DNA of 43,241 nt from contig CALLKY010000046.1 in NCBI GenBank assembly GCA_938083135.1, positions 1 to 43,241 of the forward strand, in the 5' to 3' direction. The notes under the pieces were generated by a model, which worked only from the letters and a program-made list of their open reading frames with translations, ran no database searches and was not told the DNA's origin. This stretch comes from an uncultured Alphaproteobacteria bacterium (GTDB lineage Bacteria > Pseudomonadota > Alphaproteobacteria > Bin95). Every line of letters starts with the position of its first letter. The stretch's first letter is position 1. This document shows positions 23,590-37,728 of the stretch, piece by piece. The translations under genes and the position numbers were made by a program.

Positions 23590-24528
23590 TTAGCCGTGGA
23601 GCTTGGCGCGAAGGAAGTCTGTCATAGCATTGAACGCCTTCGCGGCGTCAGGGCCAGTAATGCGGGCGCGGGCAAAACCGTGGATCATGCCTTCGGCCCG
23701 GTAGTATCCGGTCTCAACGCCAAAGCCCATCAGTTTGGCGGCATAGATCAAGCCATCGTCCAGCAGCGGGTCAAATTCCGCGACCAGCACATATGCAGGC
23801 GGCAGACCGGTAAGATCAGCAGCGACCATTGGTGTTGCCAGTGGGTCTGTGGATGCGCCAGACATCGCTTCGCCCAAATACTTGTCCCAGTATCCGCGCA
23901 TGTTGGATGTTGTTAGGCCGGGTGCGTCTGCGTTTCGTTGATAGCTATCAAACTCCAGCTTATCCGTCAGGCAGGGATAGATCAGGCCCTGGCATTTGAG
24001 AGCGGGGCCGCCATGGTCCCGCGCCCAAAGTGCCACAGCAGCGGCGAGGTTGCCGCCAGCACTATCACCAGATACGCCGATCAGGCTGCCGTCCACGCCG
24101 TAATCGCCGGGGTTCTTTGCGACATGCTCTAGGGCTGCCACGCAATCGTGGAGCGCTGCTGGGTAGGGGTGTTCTGGCGCTAAGCGGTAATCCACGCTGA
24201 TCACGACAGCGCCCGTTTCCCCAGCAAGGCCCCAGCCATTGGTATCACTGGTATCGCAATCGCCCTTAACAAACCCGCCGCCGTGGTAATAAAGCAGCGC
24301 CGGTTTTGCCCCAGCGCCTGCAGGTGTGTAGATGCGGATTGGCACGGCATTGCCGTCACGGCCTGGAACCATGCGGTTTTCGACCATCATCCCAGCAGGA
24401 GGCGGGACGGCATTGGCACGGGCGTATTCAGACCAAATCTGCCTGTCTTCGGCCAGGTTCTGACCTTGTGGCAGGCTTGCGCGGGCCGCGATCAGGGGCT
24501 GTACGTCTGGGTGCAGGTCAAAGCTCAT
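23590..24528 (-). CDS. alpha/beta hydrolase, hormone-sensitive-lipase type
   Basis: A 312-residue esterase-like enzyme. HGGG (82-85) forms the oxyanion hole, Ser156 lies in GDSAGGN, Asp253 in AEFDPLLDDG and His283 in MIHGFA. This is the complete catalytic triad of the HSL family. It probably hydrolyses a small ester or amide arising in the pathway. It overlaps hyuB by 4 bases. Confidence 0.92.
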   Translation of the reverse strand: MSFDLHPDVQPLIAARASLPQGQNLAEDRQIWSEYARANAVPPPAGMMVENRMVPGRDGNAVPIRIYTPAGAGAKPALLYYHGGGFVKGDCDTSDTNGWGLAGETGAVVISVDYRLAPEHPYPAALHDCVAALEHVAKNPGDYGVDGSLIGVSGDSAGGNLAAAVALWARDHGGPALKCQGLIYPCLTDKLEFDSYQRNADAPGLTTSNMRGYWDKYLGEAMSGASTDPLATPMVAADLTGLPPAYVLVAEFDPLLDDGLIYAAKLMGFGVETGYYRAEGMIHGFARARITGPDAAKAFNAMTDFLRAKLHG

Positions 24529-26267
24529 GGCATATCCTCATGTTTCGCTTGTTTTAATAATGCGGCGGGGTCTGCTGCGCCATAGGCTCTTGTTGCTGCA
24601 TCGGGCGTTACATATCCATCTAGCAGGTCCAAACCGATCGCCGCTGGATCGCGCCCGCTGACAGCACCGAACCCGCCGGACCCTGGCGTTACCATGTCGA
24701 CCACCGATCCACCGGGTGCCGCGAAGGCCCCTTTGCTTGGCAAGCTGCGGGTTGCACCATCGGGTGTTGTCACCGTCACCGTTGCTGGAATGCCGGGGGC
24801 TCCCCCCGCCAAGCCGAAGGGTGGGGATGTCATGCGCTCCATACACAATGCGCCGGTTGCATCTGCGCCATCTAGCATCCGCCAAGTGCGGCGCGCACCG
24901 GCACCGCCCCGGAATTTGCCTGCACCACCCGAATTCGGCTCAATCTCATAGCGCTCGACCCGCACAGGGAATGCCATTTCCAGCACTTCAACGGGCGTGT
25001 TCATGGTGTTGGAAATACCGCTCGCGACGACGTTGATGCCGTCCTTATTGGGCCTGGCCCCGAACCCACCCTTGACGGTTTCATAGGACACATAGCGCCG
25101 CCCATTGCGCGGATCGAGCCCGCCCAATGTCAACACGGCGGAGGTGCCTTGGCTGCAGGCCATCACCTGGTCCGGCATGAATTCAGCCAGCGCGCCCATC
25201 ACCATATCGGCCGTCCGGTGGGACATTTCATGATTGGCGTACACAACAGGTGCCGGGAATTCGACATTGACGACTGTGCCCTTGGGGGCCGTGACCTCAA
25301 TCGCGCGCCAGCACCCAGAATTCGGTGGAATCAGGCTATTGGGATCAATCGCTGTCTTCAGTCCGCAGAATACGCCAGAAGCGGAAACGGAAAGCGGCGC
25401 GTTCATTGGGCCGGCGACCTGTGCGTCCGTGCCAGCGAAATCAACGGTGATCCGGTCGCCGAACTTCTTCACCCGCATCCGGACCCAGAACGGGGCGTCG
25501 CTGCCGTCTGCATGGTCTGGAATGCCGTCGCCGTCGCAGAAGTCTTCGAAATAGCCTTCCCCATCTGGTAGTTCGCTAAGGGCTGCGCGCATCAACCGGT
25601 CAGAATAGTTCATGACATCGGCCATATATTCGACCAGCCGTTCGGCACCGTATCGGTCCGCCAGTGTTTTCAACCGCTCTGCAGCACGCAGGGTCGCTGC
25701 GAGTTGGGAGCCAAGATCGCCTTTGCGCTCATCCGGCGTGCGGACATTGGATAGAATGACGGCTTCCAGCGCTTCATTCAACACGCCTTTGTCGTAGAGA
25801 CGTACTGGTGGGAGGCGAAGTCCCTCGCCATAAATTTCTGTCACGGCGCCATAGCTGCCGGGTGTCGCGGAGCCAACGTCTGGCCAATGGGCGCGGAGAC
25901 AGGTGAAGCCCAGATGCACGTCACCATGGAATGCAGGCCGGACCACATTCACATCCGGCAAATGGCTGCCGCCGAAATACGGATCATTGTGAATGAATAC
26001 GTCACCTTCATAGACGTCATCGCCAAAGGCTTGCACCACGGCACGCACGGCATCTGGCATAGAGCCTAGATGGATTGGTAGGTCCGGCCCTTGCGCAACC
26101 ATATCCCCGGCGCGGTCAAACACGCCGCAGGAATAGTCGCCAGCGGACTTGAGGATTGGCGAGTAGGCGGTTTTAGCCAGTACGACCCGCATTTCCTCCG
26201 CGATCTTATAGAGGCTGTTTTTGACGATTTCGAATGTCGCGGGATCATTCTGATTTGGCCTGCTCAT
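24525..26267 (-). CDS. hyuB: hydantoinase B / oxoprolinase family subunit
   Basis: A 580-residue HyuB-type subunit. It opens with DPATFEIVKNSLYKIAEEMRVVLAKTAYSPILKSAGDYSCGVFD, then HNDPYFGGSHLPDVNVVRPAFHGD and the C-terminal GGAGKFRGGAGARRTWRM block. All three are diagnostic. With HyuA it forms ATP-dependent enzymes that open five-membered cyclic amides (N-methylhydantoin, 5-oxoproline) or carboxylate ketones such as acetone and acetophenone. The exact substrate cannot be assigned. Four-base overlaps with hyuA and the hydrolase gene imply tight coupling. Confidence 0.93.
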   Translation of the reverse strand: MSRPNQNDPATFEIVKNSLYKIAEEMRVVLAKTAYSPILKSAGDYSCGVFDRAGDMVAQGPDLPIHLGSMPDAVRAVVQAFGDDVYEGDVFIHNDPYFGGSHLPDVNVVRPAFHGDVHLGFTCLRAHWPDVGSATPGSYGAVTEIYGEGLRLPPVRLYDKGVLNEALEAVILSNVRTPDERKGDLGSQLAATLRAAERLKTLADRYGAERLVEYMADVMNYSDRLMRAALSELPDGEGYFEDFCDGDGIPDHADGSDAPFWVRMRVKKFGDRITVDFAGTDAQVAGPMNAPLSVSASGVFCGLKTAIDPNSLIPPNSGCWRAIEVTAPKGTVVNVEFPAPVVYANHEMSHRTADMVMGALAEFMPDQVMACSQGTSAVLTLGGLDPRNGRRYVSYETVKGGFGARPNKDGINVVASGISNTMNTPVEVLEMAFPVRVERYEIEPNSGGAGKFRGGAGARRTWRMLDGADATGALCMERMTSPPFGLAGGAPGIPATVTVTTPDGATRSLPSKGAFAAPGGSVVDMVTPGSGGFGAVSGRDPAAIGLDLLDGYVTPDAATRAYGAADPAALLKQAKHEDMP

Positions 26268-34167: not shown

Positions 34168-34896
34168 TTAGCTGAAGACGTCTGCCAACTCTTCAAGGCT
34201 GGCACCTTCTTTCGCGACCCGGAGGCGAACGAAGGTATGGGCCGTTGCGATCGCACTTAGCACGCCGACCATCACTACAATCGCGGTGATCCCAACCATG
34301 ATGCCATCGTTCTCCGATGCGCCCGGCCATGCTGCCTCGGCGCCGAGTATAAGCCCAAACGCTACGAATATCGCAGCTAGCGTTAGGATGATCGACAAGC
34401 CGAATATGGGCGAACGATAGCCAGAGGTTAGGTCGAGGCTGCGGGAGAAAGCGCTGCGCATTCCCCGCCCCTCAACCACTACCGCTGGAATAACGACAAA
34501 TAGGATTGTCATGAAATACAGCCCTGGAATGATAAAGAACGCGGTCCCGAAGCCAACAATCAGGCTGTAGATAAAGCTGGTGAGAAAGACCGCGCCAAGG
34601 CGTGGGCTAATGGCAGATATCGTTTGGCCGAGCGTGACCGGACGACCGCTGGCGAGCATCACGATTTCGTATGTCGCGATGGCTGCAAACACGCTTGAGC
34701 AGACTGTTCCTAGAATGCTTTCGAAGGTTGACCCGAAGGTGCTTGATCGGAACTCATCTCCAAAAAGCATGAACAAGAACACTGGCACATAGCAGAGCAG
34801 CGCTAGGGGCACGAAGTGAACGAAGCGCCCGAAGAATGTCGAAAATGAAGCGCCAATGACGCCGCCGATGGAAAATCGGTTCGGTTCGCTCTGCAT
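34168..34896 (-). CDS. polytopic membrane protein, tandem paralogue 3 of 3
   Basis: A 242-residue membrane protein with about six helices. It shares landmarks with the next two genes: an N-terminal FSIGGVIGASF followed by PLALLCYVPVF, a central IPGLYFMTILFVVIPAVVVEGRG then SLDLTSGYRSPIFGL, and a C-terminal LRVAKEGASLEELADVF tail. The central motif resembles the membrane domain attached to some glycerophosphodiester phosphodiesterases, but no catalytic domain is present, so function is unknown. GGAG lies 7 bases before the ATG. It is the last gene of the operon begun by the AhpD-like gene. Confidence 0.82.
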   Translation of the reverse strand: MQSEPNRFSIGGVIGASFSTFFGRFVHFVPLALLCYVPVFLFMLFGDEFRSSTFGSTFESILGTVCSSVFAAIATYEIVMLASGRPVTLGQTISAISPRLGAVFLTSFIYSLIVGFGTAFFIIPGLYFMTILFVVIPAVVVEGRGMRSAFSRSLDLTSGYRSPIFGLSIILTLAAIFVAFGLILGAEAAWPGASENDGIMVGITAIVVMVGVLSAIATAHTFVRLRVAKEGASLEELADVFS

Positions 34897-34935
34897 AGAA
34901 AGACTCCGGTAATTCTGGGCTTGTTTTAGGTTCGC

Positions 34936-35721
34936 TTAATCAAAGACTGCGGCCAACTCTTCCACGCTGGCACCCTCTTTGGCAATCTTCAGCGCAACAT
35001 AGGTATAGGCAACGGCAAGGGCGCTCAACACGCCGAAAGTGGTTATGCCCAGGTACCCGATACCCGTTAGGAAGTACACGTTGGCGATCTCTGATGTGGC
35101 CAAAATCAGGACGAGACTAAGCGCCCATTGCAGGATGAACACCAGGATGATGAACAGCACAATCAGCCCAAACACACGCCACCGGTAGCCTTTGGTGAGG
35201 TTAGCGCTGCGTTTTAACGCGGCGATCGGACCAAGCCCCTTCATAACGACTGCGGGCACGGTGACCCAGAGCATCGTGAGCAGGAATAACCCAGGTATGA
35301 ACAGAAGTATCATTCCTGCATAGACGATGATCGTGAACAGAATACTTGCCAGGACCACTGGGAGAATGCGTGGCGCGGCTGCTGCAATTGCTTCGCCTAG
35401 TCCAGGACGCGCGCCAGTTTCATCCATGACGACTTCATAGATTGCAACTGCCGCAAATACGCCTGCGCAAACCATGGGGAGCAGAAAGCTGAGTGCCATC
35501 CAAGTGATACTGTTATTCACCAATGCCTCTGCGAGGTCGCTTGAGTGCTTAAGGTCCACAAGGGCCTGATTTTGGATGTAGTTCATGATGCCGACAGGCA
35601 GATAGCAGAGCAATCCAAGCGGTAGAAAATGCGTAATCCGGCGGAAAAAGGCAGAGAACGTCTGCTTTAGAACATGACCGATGGAAAATTGATTCACGGG
35701 ATTAGCGGCGAGGTCAGCCAT
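34936..35721 (-). CDS. polytopic membrane protein, tandem paralogue 2 of 3
   Basis: A 261-residue membrane protein with the same layout as its neighbours: FSIGHVLKQTFSAFFRR, LGLLCYLPVG, then IPGLFLLTMLWVTVPAVVMKG and SANLTKGYRWRVFGL. It ends in the soluble tail KIAKEGASVEELAAVFD. The frame is open to 35781, but the ATG at 35721 has GGAG 8 bases upstream and starts near the conserved part. It precedes paralogue 3 by 39 bases. Function unknown; the tandem set suggests subunits of one membrane assembly. Confidence 0.82.
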   Translation of the reverse strand: MADLAANPVNQFSIGHVLKQTFSAFFRRITHFLPLGLLCYLPVGIMNYIQNQALVDLKHSSDLAEALVNNSITWMALSFLLPMVCAGVFAAVAIYEVVMDETGARPGLGEAIAAAAPRILPVVLASILFTIIVYAGMILLFIPGLFLLTMLWVTVPAVVMKGLGPIAALKRSANLTKGYRWRVFGLIVLFIILVFILQWALSLVLILATSEIANVYFLTGIGYLGITTFGVLSALAVAYTYVALKIAKEGASVEELAAVFD

Positions 35722-35814
35722 GCTCTGGTCTCCGACACATTCGGTTTGCCAAAATCGTAAGGGTTGTGATTGGTCTGTCAATAAAAGCCAGAAACGTGTG
35801 GTGAAATTGCTAAC

Positions 35815-36624
35815 CTATTTGAAGATATCTGCCAATTGCGCGCCAGATTTTCCTTCTTTAAGGCGTCGCAAGTGCACGAACGAATACGCAGCGGCAATGC
35901 CGCTCAGCATGCCGAACACGGCTTGGTTCAGCAAAAGCGTTAAGGTAGTGCCAAGGACATAAGAGCTGAGGTCCCGCGCACTCGACATCAAGAGATTGAT
36001 CCCGAAATATTGCGAAAACCCACCAATGATTCTCTCCAATAGCGCTGTGAAAATAAAGAAGAGCAGCACCAGGCCGAGGATGTGCCAACGATAGCCTCTG
36101 ATTAAGCTATCGCTGCGCCTGATTGCAGCGATAGGTCCAGTGCGGTCAGTGATTGCGACCGGAACGGCAACCCAAGTGATGATCATGATGTAGAGGCCGG
36201 GGATCAGCAGGATTATGAAGCCTGTCCAGCTGAGAATGGCGACTAGCAACCCGCAAATGTAGATTGGAATGATGCGGACTAGCGTGGTCTTGAGGCTCAC
36301 GCCATCCGTATCAAGGGAACCGCTGATCTTGCTGATCTGAGCAAGCGCCAGCGTCATAAAAAGGGAAGCGCATAATACGTCCGTCAGCGTTTCTGCCGCA
36401 AAGCGCATCAAGCCAAGGTAGGCACTATTGGATGTGAGGGTGACGAACTGCGCAATCCAGATCATGCCGTAACCCAAGAAGGCCACAGGCACGTAGCAAA
36501 GCAGTGCAAGCGGCAGAAAAATGTGGACGCGGCGTATGGCCAGCATGAACGTCGCGCCAATAACCGCACCCGTGCTGAAGCGCCCCTCCAGCCTGCGGTT
36601 CAGCGCATCCTGCAGGCTGCTCAC
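35815..36624 (-). CDS. polytopic membrane protein, tandem paralogue 1 of 3
   Basis: A 269-residue membrane protein starting at a GTG 6 bases after the AhpD-like gene's TAA. It carries the shared elements FSTGAVIGATF, PLALLCYVPVAFLGYG, IPGLYIMIITWVAVPVAI, SDSLIRGYRWHILGL and the tail LRRLKEGKSGAQLADIFK. The C-terminal tail is the most diverged of the three. Close spacing to the AhpD-like gene indicates co-transcription; 93 bases separate it from paralogue 2. Function unknown. Confidence 0.82.
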   Translation of the reverse strand: MSSLQDALNRRLEGRFSTGAVIGATFMLAIRRVHIFLPLALLCYVPVAFLGYGMIWIAQFVTLTSNSAYLGLMRFAAETLTDVLCASLFMTLALAQISKISGSLDTDGVSLKTTLVRIIPIYICGLLVAILSWTGFIILLIPGLYIMIITWVAVPVAITDRTGPIAAIRRSDSLIRGYRWHILGLVLLFFIFTALLERIIGGFSQYFGINLLMSSARDLSSYVLGTTLTLLLNQAVFGMLSGIAAAYSFVHLRRLKEGKSGAQLADIFK

Positions 36625-36630
36625 TGTCGC

Positions 36631-37728
36631 TTAGCCCCGGCCGTCCCGGAAAGCGTCCAGGCCGATTGCTGCGCGCAAATCGGCTGAGAGATCGACTTTT
36701 GCTGGCTCCAAGGGAATGCCCGTTGCGTCTGCGACACGATCAATCGCGTTGAACGTGGCGGCCACACCTGCTGCGTCCACCCAACCAGCATCGCCGACGG
36801 CCTGCCTTAAGGTCGAGATTGCTGCTGCCAATTGGCCAGGGTCAGCGGCCACAAGCGCCTCCGCGAAGGCTGCCAGTTCGCTGCCTGCTGGTACACCGCC
36901 GTCGGCACCGGTCATCAAGGCTTCAAGATCGTATTCGCTACCAGAGTGTTCGCCGCTCGCACGGAGCAGAAGCGCATGGCTGGTCGTTCAGTAGAGGCAT
37001 TGGTTGAGCGCTGATATGCGCCCAGCCAGGAATTCCATTTGTGCATGGGTGATCGCGCGCGGTTCTTGGTCAAAGTCCCGCATTTGGGCGCTTGCAAGAT
37101 ATTGGGCACTGACAAGCTTGAACCAGCTCCGTTGCTCATCGGGCACCAAGGTCAACGCTTGCTGCACATTGGCACCAATCATACCGTCGTAGATATCCGC
37201 CTCATCGCCGAATTCATCGCCGGGCGGGATGACTGGAACGTAAGCGCCGGTATGGCGCGCGCTTGCTGGTCGATACCCGCTTGGCGCGCCGTCAGTGGCC
37301 TTGGGCAGTGGGCGGGGTGCCAGGCCGATGCCGCGCGCGAAGGTATCGAGCGAGATGGTGTGGATGACGACACTGACAGCTTCCACATAAGCCGCATCCG
37401 CCAAGCCTGCCGCCAAGATGCCCTCATACCAGGACCGCGACAGTCGGGCCGGGTCTGTCGTGATCCGGTGGATAACCTCCACCAGGGTTTCCGATAACAC
37501 CCCACCGTGGGTATGGTCGCCAGAGACGGCATTGGGAGAGAGAGCGTCTTTCCGCGTCTGACAAAATGGGCATTCAAGGGCAAGCCGCGTTTCTGCCGCG
37601 ATAGCAACCCGTTCCGTTCCGCTGAACCATGCGCCGGGTGCCGCTATATGCTGCAAAGCGCGGGCATGGTGCTGCAGAATATCATCCCGGATGGGCGTCT
37701 TTGCCTCCGGGTAAAGGTCTGTCGACAT
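36631..37728 (-). CDS. AhpD-like alkylhydroperoxidase-related protein, candidate selenoprotein (in-frame TGA = Sec247)
   Basis: Read as one frame of 366 codons with a single internal TGA at 36988-36990, the product has 365 residues. Around the TGA it reads QCLY-U-TTSHALLLR, i.e. Cys244-x-x-U247-x-x-x-His251. This is the redox motif CxxCxxxH of AhpD/carboxymuconolactone-decarboxylase-type peroxidases, with the TGA exactly at the resolving cysteine. A further pair, Cys53-Pro-Phe-Cys56, lies in the N-terminal half. Coding continues for 118 codons after the TGA to TAA at 36631-36633 without other stops. A hairpin suited to a bacterial SECIS follows the TGA. The ATG has GGGAG 8 bases upstream. AhpD-like selenoproteins are, from memory, known in bacteria. 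The expected role is thiol/selenol-dependent peroxide or disulfide chemistry; the partner is unknown. The alternative is a Cys-to-stop nonsense mutation. It heads an operon with three membrane-protein genes. Confidence 0.8.
36940..36990 (-). promoter_or_regulatory. candidate bacterial SECIS hairpin next to the Sec TGA
   Basis: Directly after the TGA (36988-36990) there are 24 bases to an apical loop CGTGC (36959-36963). That loop is closed by CTGCTC (36964-36969) with GAGCGG (36953-36958), six pairs including one U-G. An outer helix ACCAG (36980-36984) with CTGGT (36940-36944) encloses it. The known bacterial rule is a stem-loop whose apical loop lies roughly 16-37 nt after UGA with a G in its first two positions; here G is second and is followed by U. 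Pairing was found by eye, with no energy calculation. Confidence 0.55.

Follow-up and report, generated by a model that had tools for sequence, protein, structure and literature searches.

An in-frame TGA very probably read as selenocysteine in a two-domain AhpD-like protein of family NF041238 from an uncultured alphaproteobacterium

The reverse-strand gene at positions 36631 to 37728 of the window, by which we mean the whole stretch of 43,241 nucleotides analysed from an uncultured alphaproteobacterium, is at the level of sequence a well-supported new member of NF041238, a selenoprotein family known since 2005. The gene comprises 365 codons followed by TAA, and very probably encodes a full-length selenoprotein with SelB-dependent insertion of selenocysteine (Sec) at codon 247 and a two-domain AhpD-like product, likely to act in the reduction of hydroperoxides or other oxidised substrates. 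The in-frame TGA read here as Sec (36988 to 36990, reverse strand) lies in the context NQCLY-U-TTSHALLLR and is the sole interruption of the 365-residue translation, being followed by 118 sense codons before the TAA. Translation confirmed the first-pass annotation, made from the letters of the sequence, in the coordinates of the interrupted frame, the position of the TGA and the placement of U at 247, and translation table 11 returned ORFs of 246 aa (36988-37728) and 95 aa (36631-36918, TTG start), the second of the length that it had given for a standard reading. It also expected standard annotation to cut the gene short, which is doubtful given the dedicated model that NCBI now has for the family. 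An open run of 118 codons has a probability of about 0.015 by chance, given the base composition, and the argument is thus carried by homology and conservation. When TGA is translated as U, several further ORFs of the window become longer.

The read-through protein matched the NCBIfam model NF041238 with 463.9 bits (cut-off 175) over residues 13-361 of 365 in one stretch, the match running on past the TGA into the downstream part, and the same model was matched by all 42 aligned members. NF041238, the "alkylhydroperoxidase-related (seleno)protein", corresponds to the former Sargasso Sea "hypothetical protein 1" with the motif CxxU (2026 review, PMC13188914), for which the Sargasso Sea study of 2005 had reported four sequences, the CxxU motif and stem-loops resembling SECIS elements, but no function (PMC1088965). 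The window protein resembles the family (AhpD_rel_CFYUT) in its full-length match, its CxxU, the stem-loop after the TGA and the Sec site, and the only difference seen was CLYUT in place of the CFYUT of the family name. A second NF041238 gene is present in the same genome (L073:5765-6838, on contig C30 of G000), is 45% identical to the window copy, and has its own single TGA and SECIS-type loop. Other AhpD-like selenoproteins, i.e., NF041047 and those with the CxxU of the TIGR01926 type, share CxxU in an AhpD-like protein, but the TIGR01926-type proteins are single-domain and about 180-200 aa long, unlike the two-domain window protein. An example is a separate single-domain AhpD-like ORF in one of the collected loci (L037:28-630; TIGR01926, 122.7 bits), whose CFYUTQSH contains an in-frame TGA and whose CGUGC loop, identical to that of the window, is closed by a different stem. 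This ORF is likely a selenoprotein of the other AhpD-like kind.

Conservation of the TGA across the family bears directly on whether it is a true stop, that is, whether the gene for a Cys protein has suffered a nonsense mutation or been misread in sequencing, leaving a pseudogene or two separate proteins. The two table 11 ORFs are what such a reading would give. Every NF041238 match above the cut-off, both among 95 relatives and among 385 genomes of the class (the two sets overlap), contained exactly one internal stop, and this was always TGA. In the alignment, the TGA occupied the position of codon 247 in 41/41 full-length members, some of them only about 32% identical to the protein of the window, while the partner Cys at 244 was encoded by TGC or TGT. 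The first-pass annotation had proposed to look in homologues for Cys or Sec at this site, and it was uniformly TGA that was found. No Cys version of NF041238 above the family cut-off was seen in the 95 relatives and 385 class genomes. Since dozens of relatives carry the same TGA, an error of sequencing can for practical purposes be dismissed, and the family-wide conservation refutes the true-stop reading, which we consider extremely improbable also in view of the absence of a Cys version, the synonymous constraint just 3' of the TGA and the Sec machinery of the genome (both below). The method of the 2005 study demanded Cys-containing homologues (PMC1088965); homologues of that kind were seen neither in the plasmid collection nor in 398 genomes drawn from the phylum. 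The plasmid collection yielded no relative, and the phylum draw no member outside the window's own genome.

The genome from which the window derives (4.15 Mb, 99.99% complete) encodes the four components of Sec biosynthesis and insertion that the first-pass annotation had named as a check. These are a tRNA-Sec (67 bits, over the cut-off, and called SeC with anticodon TCA by ARAGORN), selA (531.5 bits) and selB (451.8 bits) as adjacent genes, and selD (289.4 bits). Across genomes, the presence of NF041238 tracked that of selB, the family being found in 14/22 selB-positive versus 2/73 selB-negative genomes (Fisher p 1.5e-9, uncorrected for kinship). Both of the selB-negative genomes with a family member are fragmented drafts that have tRNA-Sec, and one of them also has selA. 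Furthermore, an NF041238 gene adjoins selA-selB in one locus (L086), and a gene for an oxidoreductase-SelD fusion adjoins a family member in three genomes (L057, L071/L090 and L072; of these, only L090 was scored for the fusion). Such neighbours fit a selenium-linked role.

The surroundings of the window gene are less widely shared. A gene for a putative membrane protein (35815 to 36624, reverse strand) lies directly downstream and likely belongs to the same operon; it starts 6 bases beyond the stop, as previously annotated, provided that its GTG start is correct. A divergent acyl-CoA ligase gene begins upstream, and this order of ligase, selenoprotein and membrane protein is common to one close relative only (L020/L079). 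An operon partner common to the whole NF041238 family was sought and not found. The downstream gene is one of three successive reverse-strand membrane-protein genes (34168-36624) that are mutual paralogues of about 31-41% identity; the trio is also present in L020 and gave only weak profile matches (UPF0259/YciC, GPDPase_memb). In several family-level relatives, the selenoprotein gene has a hydantoinase-B-like gene on its downstream side (L076:1894-3693, also L077, L081, L082 and L083), which is about 40% identical to the hydantoinase B of the window (24525-26267). As a partner in the window the hydantoinase was rejected, the window genes being about 8 kb off with plus-strand genes between. 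At the left end of the window, a reverse-strand gene (92-1342) encodes an RTX protein with 12 matches to the calcium-binding repeat.

A SECIS-like element was located 24 nt after the TGA, with the core GCUC-CGUGC-GAGC at 36952 to 36970 on the reverse strand (arms 36964-36970 and 36952-36958, loop CGUGC at 36959-36963). Published bSECIS rules describe an apical loop of 3-9 nt, a stem of 4-16 bp, a G in the first two loop positions, a distance of 16-37 nt from the UGA and an MFE of at most -7.5; the window element has a 5-nt loop, a stem of 4-6 pairs, G in the second loop position followed by U, and an MFE of -8.8 (31 nt) or -15.4 (51 nt). The outermost of the seven stem pairs of the family is unformed in the window copy. 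The strongest evidence for the element, as judged from sequence, is codon choice. With each gene's own codon usage as baseline and 329 columns of the same genes for comparison, codons 255-258 were the top four of all columns for synonymous constraint (z 13-14, relatedness ignored), and the best six-column window was 254-259. Leu255 was CTC in 40/40 and Arg256 CGT in 37/40, while codons varied freely at other conserved Leu and Arg columns. Stem pairing was kept in 86.9% of cells compared to 35-53% when the partner was slid. The covariation of the stem was modest (its score was reached by 25/500 shuffles) and the folding energy of the single sequence was ordinary against shuffles (z -0.15), hence the SECIS claim stands on synonymous constraint and loop conservation. 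Rfam returned no bacterial SECIS match in the stretch, the two weak hits being far below their gathering scores.

The frame beyond the TGA would likewise stay open if the codon were read as Trp or Cys through a near-cognate tRNA or failure of the release factor, producing a regulated C-terminal extension. However, the codon falls exactly on the position of the catalytic Cys of AhpD, has a SECIS-type element behind it that stays inside the published limits, and belongs to a family that tracks selB, making ordinary read-through very unlikely. We therefore favour Sec, a reading supported by the sel machinery, the family-wide TGA, the constrained SECIS-type loop and the position in the AhpD relay, and the earlier call of selenocysteine is upheld. 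In the cell, SelB carrying Sec-tRNA(Sec) would bind the stem-loop, which starts 18 nt past the UGA, and selenocysteine would be inserted at codon 247.

The AhpD-type active site extends over codons 232-251 (36976 to 37035, reverse strand) and contains E232, C244, Y246, U247 and H251. In PA0269 and the AhpD of M. tuberculosis, the relay consists of Glu, Cys, Tyr/His, Cys and His at fixed spacing. The same pattern, Glu-x11-Cys-x-Tyr/His-Cys-x3-His with Sec counted as Cys, is found in the window protein, and its residues are kept in 40-41/41 members. Conservation of both residues and spacing thus puts Sec at the position of the second active-site Cys, as the first-pass annotation had proposed from the motif around the TGA. 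The AhpD and peroxidase-related enzymes (TIGR00778, TIGR01926; M. tuberculosis AhpD, P. aeruginosa PA0269, PDB 6k40 and 2prr) thus share the five relay residues with the C-terminal half of the window protein, and their fold corresponds to that half. In contrast to these enzymes, the window protein has Sec for the second Cys, twice the length, and a second AhpD-like half, and it stays under their curated cut-offs. The selenol of U247 would hence stand in for the second Cys with C244 as its partner, and E232, Y246 and H251 would form the proton relay. A hydroperoxide or other oxidised substrate would probably be reduced, whereupon a C244-U247 selenenylsulfide would form and be reduced by a thiol donor.

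Generic models for this chemistry scored below their cut-offs, both for AhpD (TIGR00778, 22.2 versus 27.8 bits) and for Pfam CMD (15.7 versus 23 bits), and we therefore infer peroxidase-type chemistry from the relay and the predicted fold, as we infer Sec insertion in the cell and a role for the N-terminal CxxC. These scores would suit a selenoprotein that is no peroxidase, such as a thiol-disulfide oxidoreductase, an adaptor, or an enzyme of AhpD fold acting on another substrate, as would the lack of a family-wide operon partner and the use of the fold for several chemistries; structures of the debrominase Bmp8 also matched the model of the window protein (Z 12.6-12.8). Since the five proton-relay residues of AhpD are conserved with correct spacing, we regard this alternative as somewhat less likely, although a serious one, and the product as a probable peroxide-handling enzyme.

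The predicted structure provides good support for a two-domain AhpD-like architecture. The AlphaFold2 model had a mean pLDDT of 95.1, and Foldseek retrieved AhpD-type structures and Sestrin2 at weak E-values and high probability. In the structural comparison, human Sestrin2 was best (Z 17.6 over 236 residues) and spanned both halves, while single-domain AhpD-type structures reached up to Z 13.6, mostly on the C-terminal half. When the two halves were compared by profile, the N-terminal C53-P-F-C56 (37561 to 37572, reverse strand) aligned with C244-L-Y-U247 (P 2.8e-4, one comparison). This N-terminal CxxC was present in 37/41 members, the segment being absent from four diverged ones (L067 twice, L068 and L069), and it comes without the relay Glu and His, so it is no second full active site. 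The first-pass description of an AhpD-like protein was right as to the C-terminal active site, but missed that two AhpD-like halves stand in tandem, which makes the protein more than a plain AhpD.

Fused AhpD dimers, E. coli YciW included, have been put forward as sestrin analogues, and Sestrin2 superposes on an AhpD-type dimer (PMC4674687, PMC11429811). Like Sestrin2 and YciW, the window protein has two AhpD-like domains per chain, whereas its catalytic half is C-terminal and that of sestrins N-terminal, and it has Sec where they have a single Cys. None of the 42 members matched the Pfam sestrin family (E up to 10, HMMER filters on), indicating a likeness of architecture and not membership of the sestrins. 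Just after the CxxU helix, a conserved xxYDL stretch (SEYDL in the window, 36925-36939, reverse strand, codons 264-268; DDYDL in 9/41 members) recalls DDYDY, the motif of the GATOR2-binding hinge in the second domain of sestrins, a resemblance that may be due to chance. In a non-exhaustive literature search we found no text that links NF041238 to a two-domain sestrin-like architecture. The N-terminal CxxC may relay electrons to the U247 site or be structural. It is conceivable, though on balance improbable, that the protein is a fused sestrin-like AhpD dimer whose halves divide the work, the N-terminal CxxC feeding electrons to the C-terminal CxxU in a self-contained selenoperoxidase.

In conclusion, the analysis confirmed a selenocysteine that had been called with nothing but the raw sequence at hand. 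For NF041238, it adds a search of close to 400 class genomes that gave no Cys version above the family cut-off, a clear SECIS footprint in synonymous codon choice, selA-selB or SelD-fusion neighbours in some lineages and a predicted sestrin-like two-domain architecture. If true, the division of work between the halves would mirror in bacteria the way in which sestrins split their domains, and the two redox motifs in one chain offer a concrete hypothesis for NF041238 that is testable in vitro.
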